From Leptolyngbya sp. FACHB-261 (GTDB taxonomy: Bacteria > Cyanobacteriota > Cyanobacteriia > FACHB-261), in contig NZ_JACJPL010000015.1 of assembly GCF_014696065.1 (NCBI RefSeq), positions 186,001 through 250,000 of the forward strand: DNA of 64,000 nucleotides. The letters run 5' to 3'. The position numbers were made by a program, and so were the translations under genes. The notes beneath the pieces were generated by a model, which saw nothing but the letters and a program-made list of their open reading frames with translations, had not been told where the DNA came from and ran no database searches. Positions 16,042 through 18,986 of this stretch are shown one piece after another. The first letter of the stretch is position 1. Each line of letters starts with the position of its first letter.

Positions 16042-16353
16042 TTACCAAGCCTCGCAGCTCTGCTCCTCCCAGTCCAGAATGGACTGCGCGTCTGTTGGCA
16101 CCCCCAGACGCGCTAGATTGGCTAAACAGTATTGCAATTGGTTTTTAAGCCTCCGATACTCCTCGATCAATTCCTGTAACTCGCTTGCTAGTTCAAAGAC
16201 TAGGCCGACACTCGGACACAGAAGCTGCCCTTGACATTTACAGCATTTAAACTGCGATTTTTCTTTGATTTGGACCTCTCCTGTGGGCGGTAGTAAGGCC
16301 AACGGGATTTGGAAGCTGGAGAAACTCCTTTGACTTAGGCTAGACTTGTCCAT
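16042..16353 (-). CDS. Small cysteine-containing hypothetical protein
   Basis: Not recognised. A 103-residue protein with a Cys cluster C37-C38-K-C40-x5-C46 that could form half of a zinc site, followed by a long amphipathic helix (about 50-80, VFELASELQELIEEYRRLKNQ) and an acidic C-terminus with one more Cys pair partner (C at about 72 and 99). The ATG at 16353 has a strong GGAGGAG site 8 bases upstream, better than the upstream in-frame start. Its 5' side is an unusual hairpin-rich segment. The Cys cluster plus helix would fit a small regulatory or oligomerising protein; this is inference. It does not look like a TnpB or other transposase fragment. Confidence 0.6.
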   Translation of the reverse strand: MDKSSLSQRSFSSFQIPLALLPPTGEVQIKEKSQFKCCKCQGQLLCPSVGLVFELASELQELIEEYRRLKNQLQYCLANLARLGVPTDAQSILDWEEQSCEAW

Positions 16354-16592
16354 GCGAAATACTCCTCCATTGTGGGGGGATTTGGGCAACTTGATTAGGT
16401 GGGGAGCAACCCCACTCGGCGAGCCAAATTTTGAGGGCGTTACCTGTGGTGCGGGTAGCGCCTATTTGGTATTCGCTGTGCAAATATTAGCCTTAAAATC
16501 CACTGCATGGCAATAAATACGTCTGGACCCCTTGATTTGACGTGAAGTCTACGTCCATTGTCCCCGCTCCGCTGTAAAGCCTCCAGAAGGGC

Positions 16593-16622
16593 CTGTCTCC
16601 TTCTAAATACCGAAGGAGACAG
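16593..16622. repeat. 11-bp perfect inverted repeat (hairpin)
   Basis: Arms CTGTCTCCTTC (16593-16603) and GAAGGAGACAG (16612-16622) are perfectly complementary around an 8-base loop. There is no T run on either side, so it is not a classic terminator. It lies 49 bp from the larger structured element. Confidence 0.6.
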
Positions 16623-16670
16623 AGGAGCTAAACCGTCGACTTTATAAGTTCTTCGTTTTTCGGAAAGGGG

Positions 16671-16767
16671 GGGAAGGACCTCAGACTGCAATAAATAAGT
16701 CTGTTTTCAATCCCTCATAGGGATTATGCCCTCCCATGATTTGGGGCAAGTCGAGTAGGTCCTTCCC
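16671..16767. other. Candidate structured RNA: four-way junction
   Basis: An 11-bp perfect outer stem (16671-16681 with 16757-16767) encloses three hairpins in series: 16682-16687 with 16698-16703 (6 bp), 16709-16715 with 16719-16725 (7 bp, 3-base loop) and 16727-16731 with 16744-16748 (5 bp). Unpaired linkers are short (0, 5, 1 and 8 bases). This is a cloverleaf-like fold, but without tRNA consensus bases. It could form on either strand, as an independent RNA, the leader of chlD or the leader of the small minus-strand gene. Which strand is transcribed cannot be seen. Confidence 0.45.
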
Positions 16768-16943
16768 GTGTAAAGGATATCAGAAGCACTTCATTAGGGG
16801 TTATGAATAGGGTGTCTAGGGCGACAGGGCAAAGGACAGCCATAGCCCAGTCACTACTTGCGAATCCTTATACAGACGTCAGTTAAGGATGGAGAACTGG
16901 TAGGTTTGTAGAGCTGAGGTTCCCCCCACGCCTGCCGAGAATC

Positions 16944-18986
16944 ATGTCTGCCTCCTCTGTGGCTACTGCCCCCTTCCCGCTCACTGCCGTTGTTGGCCAA
17001 GAAGCGATTAAACTCGCCCTATTGCTAGCTGCCGTCGATCCTGGCCTTGGTGGAGTAGTGATTGCAGGACGACGAGGCACTGCCAAGTCAGTTTTGGCTC
17101 GCGGCCTTCACGCACTACTGCCTTCCATTGAGGTCATTAAAGGTTCTCCAAGCAACTGCGACCCAAGCCGTCCTGCCGATTGGGATGACTGGTGCCTAGA
17201 GGAAATGCGGAGTGGTCGCATGCCCCTGATCGGCGGCCAGCCCATGCCCTTCACTCAAGTCATTCCAGCCCCCTTTGTGCAGATTCCTTTGGGAATCACT
17301 GAAGACCGGCTCCTAGGCTCGGTTGATGTAGGGCGTTCCGTCAAGGCAGGAGCATCAGTTTTTCAACCGGGCCTGCTGGCTGAAGCTAACCGAGGCGTGC
17401 TCTATATCGATGAAATCAACCTGCTAGATGACCAGATTTCCAACCTGTTACTAGGTGCGATTTCTGAGGGCTGTAATCGGATTGAGCGAGAAGGAATTAG
17501 CTGTCAGCATGCCTGCCGTCCTTTGCTCATTGCCACCTATAACCCTGAAGAAGGGGACTTGCGTGAGCATCTGCTCGACCGAATTGCCATTGCCCTGTCT
17601 GCGGATGCAGTCTTGGGACTAGACCAACGGGTGCAGGCTGTGGAACAAGCCAATGCCTATGCCGATACACCCGATCACTTCCTGGCGCAGTACACCAGCG
17701 ATCTCGAAGACCTGCAAACTCAGATCACCTTGGCACGTGAGTGGCTCAAGGATGTATCCATCAGCTCTGAGCAAATTACTTATTTGGTAGCAGAAGCCGT
17801 GCGGGGCGGGGTGCAAGGTCACCGAGCTGAGCTTTTTGCTGTGCGTGTTGCCAAGGCCCATTCTGCTTTGGATGGCCGCAACCAAGTTAATGCAGATGAT
17901 TTACGTCGCGCCGTGGAGCTGGTGATTATTCCGCGCTCGACCGTTGTAGAGCAACAACCGCCGCCACCACCACCCCCGCCGCCACCCCCTGAGAACACAG
18001 AGCAACCCGAAGACTCAGATCAGGAACAGGAAAACGAGGAAGACAAAGAAGACTCAGAAGAACCGGAAGATCAGCAACCACCTAGCAGCATCCCTGAAGA
18101 GTTTGTCTTCGATGCAGAGGGGGTAATTCTCGATCCTGAGCTGTTTTACTTCGCTCAAAATGCTCGTCGTCGCGGCAAATCCGGAGCCCGAAATTTAGTG
18201 TTCTCCCAGGATCGGGGGCGCTACATTCGTCCGGTACTACCCCGTGGCGAGGTGCGTCGGATCGCAGTTGACGCCACCTTACGCAGCGCTGCACCCTATC
18301 AAAAATCGCGTCGCAGTCGCAATCCGGGTCGACGGGTGATTGTTGAAAGCTCAGATATACGCGAGAAGCGCCTAGCCCGTAAAGCGGGTGCCCTAGTGAT
18401 CTTTGTCGTTGATGCCTCTGGTTCAATGGCTCTAAATCGGATGCAATCCGCCAAAGGTGCTGTGTTGCGCCTCTTAACCGATGCCTATCAGAACCGCGAC
18501 CAGGTGGCGCTGATCCCCTTCCGAGGCGAACGGGCTGAAGTCTTGCTGCCGCCTACCCGTTCGATCGAAGCGGCCCGACGACGCCTTGATTTGCTGCCCT
18601 GTGGTGGGGGTTCGCCCTTAGCCCATGGACTCACGCAAGCAGTGCGCGTTGCGGTCAATGCCCAAAGTTCTGGCGATGTTGGCCAGGTGATGATCGTGGC
18701 GATCACCGATGGCCGGGGCAACATCTCTTTGTCTCGCTCGCTAGGCGAGCAGCCACCCCCCGAAGGCAAACCAGATATTAAAGGTGAGCTATTGGACATT
18801 TCGGGGCGCATCCGTGCCTTAGGCCTACAATTGCTGGTGATTGACACTGAAAGTAAGTTCATTTCGACGGGATTCGCCAAAGAATTGGCAGAACGAGCTG
18901 GTGGTAAGTACCACCGGCTCCCCCGAGCCACCGATCAAGCCATCGCCAGCATGACGCGCAACGCCATTGCCGATATGCGCAAGTGA
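16944..18986 (+). CDS. chlD: Magnesium chelatase subunit D
   Basis: ChlD works with ChlI and ChlH to insert Mg2+ into protoporphyrin IX, the first committed step of chlorophyll synthesis. The 680-residue protein has the N-terminal AAA+ domain (about 10-330; Walker A-like GRRGTAKSV, acidic [11 protein letters not shown]), a run of prolines starting near residue 339, an acidic Glu/Asp-rich linker (about 350-385) and a C-terminal von Willebrand A domain with the MIDAS motif DASGS near residue 490. This layout and length are standard. It starts at ATG 16944 and is followed 24 bp later by an amidohydrolase, so read-through into two metabolic genes is likely. The name is secure. Confidence 0.96.

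Follow-up and report, generated by a model that had tools for sequence, protein, structure and literature searches.

A solitary CRISPR repeat near chlD in Leptolyngbya sp. FACHB-261 as a probable Cre-type guide of the type I-D system

Described solitary-repeat guides and the locus near chlD

The closest described counterparts of the element analysed here are the CreA guides of CreTA modules, known from type I-B and type I-F systems (PMC8501985, PMC10097628), of haloarchaea and Acinetobacter, respectively. They combine a degenerate solitary repeat and an 8-nt handle with a guide that shows a partial, PAM-adjacent match to the promoter of the adjacent gene. Published CreA guides pair at positions 1-5 and 7-11 behind the 8-nt handle (PMC8501985), because position 6 is not needed by type I seeds (PMC10212523). 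A second repeat, giving a 3' handle, is a usual but not obligatory feature of CreA, and a one-repeat CreA has been described in H. hispanica (PMC8501985). The CreR guides, reported for types I-B, I-E and V-A (summarised in PMC13131331), are also solitary-repeat guides, with limited complementarity to a nearby promoter. In CrePA the toxin is a protein (PMC12737573); a CreA-like guide faces a protein-coding gene, and CreP typically carries a KilA-N domain. The scaRNA of Francisella Cas9, which contains a degenerate repeat, represses a chromosomal gene through a 15-bp match, and Racr is a virus-encoded repeat mimic, a solitary CRISPR repeat outside an array for which a nearby target is not needed. 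As regards type I-D, the interference PAM is GTN or GTH (PMC10212523) and Cascade carries an 8-nt handle (PMC9123187). A type I-D Cre guide was not found in the literature searched, including two reviews expected to mention one; subscription papers were mostly outside this search, so novelty is unproven.

The element lies in a stretch of 64,000 nucleotides (the window, C15:186001-250000), at least 186 kb from both contig ends. It is located between rpsB/tsf/recG and chlD, and the neighbours with family matches (recG, tsf, rpsB, chlD and hrcA) are housekeeping genes. The type I-D locus of this genome, single and complete, is present on another contig (C26, 2.7-13.1 kb; cas1d, cas4, cas6, cas3', csc1, csc2, cas10d), and the genome contains one csc2 and one cas6. 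The hallmarks of a Cre guide were found here: a host-related degenerate repeat outside the arrays, a partial, PAM-adjacent seed match (at a promoter that is predicted) and, in the same genome, a cognate Cascade with Cas6 (cas10d, csc2, csc1, cas3', cas6). The likeness to CreA of CreTA includes the degenerate solitary repeat, the 8-nt handle and the partial match to the promoter of the adjacent gene. The differences from CreTA are the subtype, the GTN PAM, the position far from cas genes, a match that extends to nt 16, a long outer stem that closes the guide, and a target that is a 103-aa ORF of only possible toxicity; moreover, the second repeat is not recognisable. Like CreR, the element joins a solitary repeat to limited complementarity with a nearby promoter, but this promoter is not a cas promoter and the element and the cas genes lie on different contigs. 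As in CrePA, the guide faces a protein-coding gene, whereas the protein lacks the family match that KilA-N gives to CreP. The scaRNA, despite its degenerate repeat, belongs to the class 2 Cas9 machinery, unrelated to type I-D. The element is classed as a Cre-type guide, not as a proven CreTA or CreR, because the second repeat is unrecognisable and a link to the cas locus is missing.

The predicted minus-strand RNA and its target

The first-pass annotation had described an 11-bp perfect stem around three hairpins in the 97 bases at 16671-16767, and this architecture (16671-16681 paired with 16757-16767) is indeed present. The minus-strand fold reaches -41.1 kcal/mol (z = -5.0) and the plus-strand fold -41.7 kcal/mol (z = -5.1), with no dinucleotide shuffle as low on either strand. 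As the first-pass annotation had stated, it is not a terminator: the stem is without a T run and no intrinsic terminator was called at 16671-16767. In the whole window no Rfam family exceeded its gathering threshold. The two strands could not be separated in that first description; the minus strand is the informative one, and its middle hairpin corresponds to the stem of the CRISPR repeat found in this genome's arrays. The suggestion of an independent RNA is supported in the form of a CRISPR-type guide read on the minus strand.

The repeat half preserved in the element, psiR1 (AATCCCTATGAGGGATTGAAA), is identical at 21 of 21 bases to the repeat variant ...AATCCCTATGAGGGATTGAAA(C) of the C26 arrays (Table 1). 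It is the sole repeat copy with 0-1 mismatches outside the array-bearing contigs C26 and C31 of the 6.95-Mb assembly, and the only exact CCCTnnnAGGGATTGAAA repeat in the assembly with a non-C end. The handle of psiR1 ends in A; in many elements of the cas loci surveyed below, the last handle base is A or T. This 3' half is common among the array repeats of cyanobacterial type I-D systems, in which a CCCGG variant also occurs. The best candidate for a second repeat, psiR2 (CGAAGAACtTA near 16645-16655), is at chance level, and the locus, having a single repeat, falls short of a CRISPR array (at least 2 repeats, spaced by ~70-75 bp). Array finders skip such CRISPR regulators because of the single repeat, while a plain fold anomaly can flag them.

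Several features of the arrays deserve a separate record. Two families of repeats, GTCGCAAAAACAGC... and GTCGC[AG]AAGAACCT..., are present in the arrays of C26 and C31; they share their 3' half, and the genome has a single cas6 and a single csc2. Degenerate repeats were also found near arrays, and two orphan mini-arrays of 1-2 degenerate repeats lie away from the main arrays (C26:40344, L007 1494-1580; C26:23938-24032, L080 3938-4033).

Table 1. Features of the candidate guide RNA and of its predicted target (window coordinates)
Feature	Sequence	Position	Strand	Basis
Candidate extended -10	TGATATCCT	16774..16782	-	sequence and position; would put the RNA start at ~16767
Leader arm of outer stem	GGGAAGGACCT	16757..16767	-	fold; leader/tail pairing recurs in I-D solitary-repeat guides
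psiR1, degenerate solitary CRISPR repeat (3' half)	AATCCCTATGAGGGATTGAAAA	16704..16725	-	21/21 identity to array repeat variant
Predicted 8-nt 5' handle	AUUGAAAA	16711-16704	-	Cas6 cut predicted between 16712 and 16711
psiS, spacer-like guide (seed nt 1-16, plus tail)	CAGACTTATTTATTGC (nt 1-16)	16669..16703	-	35-nt length estimated from array spacers
Tail arm of outer stem (psiS nt 23-33)	AGGTCCTTCCC	16671..16681	-	fold
PAM (type I-D GTN)	GTC	16526..16528	-	sequence; PAM rule from PMC10212523
Protospacer core	CAGACGTATTTATTGC	16510..16525	-	psiS 1-5 and 7-16 match, sole mismatch at position 6
Predicted promoter covered by protospacer	TTGCCA-18-TAATAT	16484..16513	-	only sigma-70-like match in 16340-16945
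Shine-Dalgarno of 103-aa ORF	GGAGGAG	16368-16362	-	
Target ORF, 103 aa, Cys cluster CCKCQGQLLC, long C-terminal helix		16042..16353	-	

The candidate -10 was not among the promoters called by the consensus scan. It ends 7 bases ahead of the leader arm, and the outer stem may therefore begin at the 5' end of the RNA. Within psiS, nt 1-6 can also pair with nt 17-22, and in this way all of the guide bases without a match in the target (17-33) are engaged, either in the outer stem or in pairing with the seed.

The 6.95-Mb genome contains a single further occurrence of bases 1-5 and 7-16 of psiS, at 16525-16510 on the same strand, and in the whole window the guide and its target are the only 16-mers that match in this way within 500 bp on one strand. 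The match ends after base 16, as expected for a regulatory guide with partial complementarity. The PAM offset requires the 8-nt handle, so that the sole mismatch falls at position 6. The predicted promoter carries little weight on its own, as 0.8 such promoters are expected by chance, and its -10 is weak. The earlier view that the structure might be a leader of the Cys-cluster gene on the minus strand is retained only in part: the gene is linked to the element through its predicted promoter, which is the target of the guide 178 bp downstream, but the leader role is not supported.

Relatives of the 103-aa ORF were absent from 390 cyanobacterial genomes, Pfam, NCBIfam, PHROGs, PADLOC, plasmids and viral contigs. 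Its codon score is low for the genome, with the small fault that the training set contained one frame-shifted gene. AlphaFold2, run on the single sequence, gave a model with a pLDDT of 67 that consists of helices only, in which the long helix is confident and the N-terminus poor; Foldseek returned no significant match for this model. A further 11-bp perfect hairpin (CTGTCTCCTTC/GAAGGAGACAG, 16593-16622), without a T run, lies between guide and target and may serve as the end or a stabiliser of the guide transcript.

The element is probably a repeat-derived CRISPR guide of the Cre type, transcribed on the minus strand from ~16767 to 16669, which loads the type I-D Cascade and represses the promoter of the 103-aa ORF. 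What can be read directly from the DNA is the repeat, the match of the guide to its target next to a PAM, the overlap with the promoter motif, the presence of cas genes and the fact that the rule described below holds at other loci. That the RNA is transcribed, processed by Cas6 and loaded into Cascade, that it represses the promoter, and that the ORF acts as a toxin or another conditional effector is inferred. Leftward transcription would give an RNA in which the repeat hairpin is exposed and the guide is closed between the leader and tail arms. Cas6 of the single type I-D system would cut at the base of the repeat hairpin and leave the 8-nt handle. The guide-loaded Cascade would then recognise the site with its GTC at 16528-16510, forming 15 of 16 pairs and leaving base 6 unpaired, and would sit there without cutting because only 15-16 bases pair. 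The bound complex would thus block the promoter without cleavage and keep the ORF off for as long as Cascade works; once Cascade is lost or inhibited, the ORF would be switched on.

Solitary-repeat guides in cyanobacterial type I-D loci

The search rule was set on the window element first and then applied to independent loci. It comprised a solitary repeat, an 8-nt handle, a seed at positions 1-5 and 7-11 with base 6 free, and a GTN PAM, with matches sought within 1.5 kb. Among 390 cyanobacterial genomes csc2 was found in 121, and the sample consisted of 60 cyanobacterial type I-D cas loci, 40 of which contained solitary degenerate repeats (60 in total). At the offset set by the 8-nt handle, 17 of the 60 loci had seed matches (1-5 and 7-11), 19 in total; some of these loci are related to each other, so that the 17 are not fully independent events. 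All 19 matches were preceded by GT, and position 6 was mismatched in 15. Twelve wrong offsets used as a control also gave 19 matches, but GT preceded only one of them; shuffled guides gave 7 matches in 20 rounds, none with GT.

In the mapped cas loci the elements lie mostly between cas3' or the WYL regulator and cas10d, the position expected of CreR-type autorepressors or CreTA modules. Solitary-repeat guides with GTN-flanked seed matches are widespread in these ~60 genomes (L118-L177; for example L133 5102(-), L140 4498(-), L143 4198(-), L156 5297(-) and L174 14169(+)) and are probably undescribed type I-D CreR or CreTA elements; for those of the I-D cas loci CreR is the most fitting name. 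Among the seed-matched elements of this survey, that of the window alone has its target downstream along the guide strand, and it alone is known to lie outside a cas locus.

The leader/tail stem was examined as a recurring feature in 41 solitary-repeat elements. The leader pairs with its own guide tail at a mean of -19.8 kcal/mol, compared with -15.5 kcal/mol for the tails of other elements (z = -7.0), and none of 20,000 permutations was as good. The longest Watson-Crick leader/tail helices differ in sequence and keep their complementarity (p = 0.0008), as can be seen in the window (GGGAAGGACCT), L156 (TGGAGAAGGGG), L157 (AGGAGAAAGGG), L145 (GTGGGAAAGG) and L133 (AAGCCTTGA). The stem is not universal, being absent for example in L154 and L166. 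Covariation among homologues, which had been put forward as a check of the structure, is seen at the level of the element class, while a direct homologue of the locus was not present in the collections searched. The exact element pattern had no match in GTDB contigs. A DNA search of 59 relatives, none closer than class, returned only CRISPR repeats of other genomes and one unrelated weak match; the nearest ChlD is 73% identical, and neither RpsB nor the orphan protein occurs beside chlD in 64 ChlD loci. As the locus itself had no homologue, joint conservation of guide and target was not seen. When repeats whose handle ends in a base other than C were sought by pattern across the class, several solitary repeats were found, none with the geometry of the window element.

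Other observations from the survey concern particular guides. One guide, AAATACGTCTGAACTTACTGG or near variants, recurs in L119, L122, L129, L136, L143, L147, L148, L185, L204 and L206. Its upstream match (AAATAAGTCTGAACTTA in L143) resembles half of a palindromic operator (TTATTTAACnnGTnAAATA), which may be a site used by both the guide and a transcription factor. In the window, minus-strand positions 16525-16515 and 16703-16693 (CAGACGTATTT and CAGACTTATTT) are the exact reverse complements of the start of this recurrent guide (AAATACGTCTG) and of its L143 target (AAATAAGTCTG), a likeness for which an evolutionary link and coincidence are both possible. The solitary repeat of L203 (G269:C373) adjoins a helicase-like ORF (possibly cas3') and an ORF resembling a nucleotidyltransferase; at a distance of 139 bp it has a 16-nt seed match flanked by GTT, and the survey gave no csc2 match in this genome. 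Beside the WYL gene of the Leptolyngbya cas locus itself (C26, L079 14150-14620), tandem repeats ATAGAAAAGATG and TAGAGAAGTGAGATTAGATCG resemble the L133 guide (TATAGAAAAGATGTGA) and are perhaps relics of a lost CreR.

Alternative readings and meaning for type I-D regulation

A module of the CreTA or CrePA kind proper is a toxin-specific form of the explanation given above, not an alternative to it. The guide would be the antitoxin and the downstream transcript or the 103-aa protein the toxin, which would addict the cell to its type I-D system or kill it under anti-CRISPRs. We regard this as a real possibility, if one below even likelihood. The guide adjoins its target gene, as in CreTA, and lacks a match to the cas promoter, and the small size, the lack of relatives and the strong Shine-Dalgarno of the gene would fit a toxin. 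However, toxicity of the ORF is a supposition; family searches found neither a KilA-N domain nor another toxin family in it, and the module lies away from the cas genes, in contrast to the cas-linked cases described.

A decayed remnant of a CRISPR mini-array, now functionless, is unlikely. Only half of one repeat is preserved, the second repeat is not significant, and degenerate repeats occur near the arrays of this genome. Such decay would nevertheless leave unexplained the seed-limited match to a nearby PAM-flanked site that is unique in the genome, and the 11-bp outer stem is intact and common to functional-looking elements.

That the guide regulates cas genes as a CreR-type autorepressor is very unlikely, even though elements of the same build stand beside cas10d in many cyanobacteria. 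No seed match was present in the cas locus of this genome, its cas promoter or its surroundings (L079, L080, L083, L084), so the guide is not the CreR of its own system; its sole good match adjoins it. A solitary-repeat guide element was not seen within that cas locus either.

It is equally improbable that the structure acts on the plus strand, as a structured chlD leader or another non-coding RNA. The plus-strand fold is as good as that of the minus strand, but any inverted repeat would show this symmetry. It is the minus strand that carries the handle, the guide, the PAM and the promoter targeted, and the consensus scan found no plus-strand promoter in 16340-16945. The earlier proposal of a chlD leader is unsupported, because every informative feature is on the opposite strand.

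Least probable of all is a Racr-like anti-CRISPR RNA, in which a solitary repeat brought by a mobile element would titrate Cas proteins. The repeat is identical to that of the host, but the neighbours with family matches are housekeeping genes, and titration does not call for a matching target such as the one found here.

Summarizing, the Cre-type guide is the preferred reading of the minus-strand RNA. A more specific proposal, to which we give not quite even credence, is that this is a stand-alone type I-D guide, unlinked to cas genes and locked by its leader/tail stem, that controls an orphan effector, and that the locked guide is general in an undescribed family of cyanobacterial I-D Cre RNAs. 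If true, CRISPR RNA-guided self-regulation would extend to type I-D, a system common in cyanobacteria, and a guide would control a gene away from the cas locus. The rule of the survey, together with the leader/tail stem, offers a way to locate such guides and their targets, possibly including new toxins, in many cyanobacteria.
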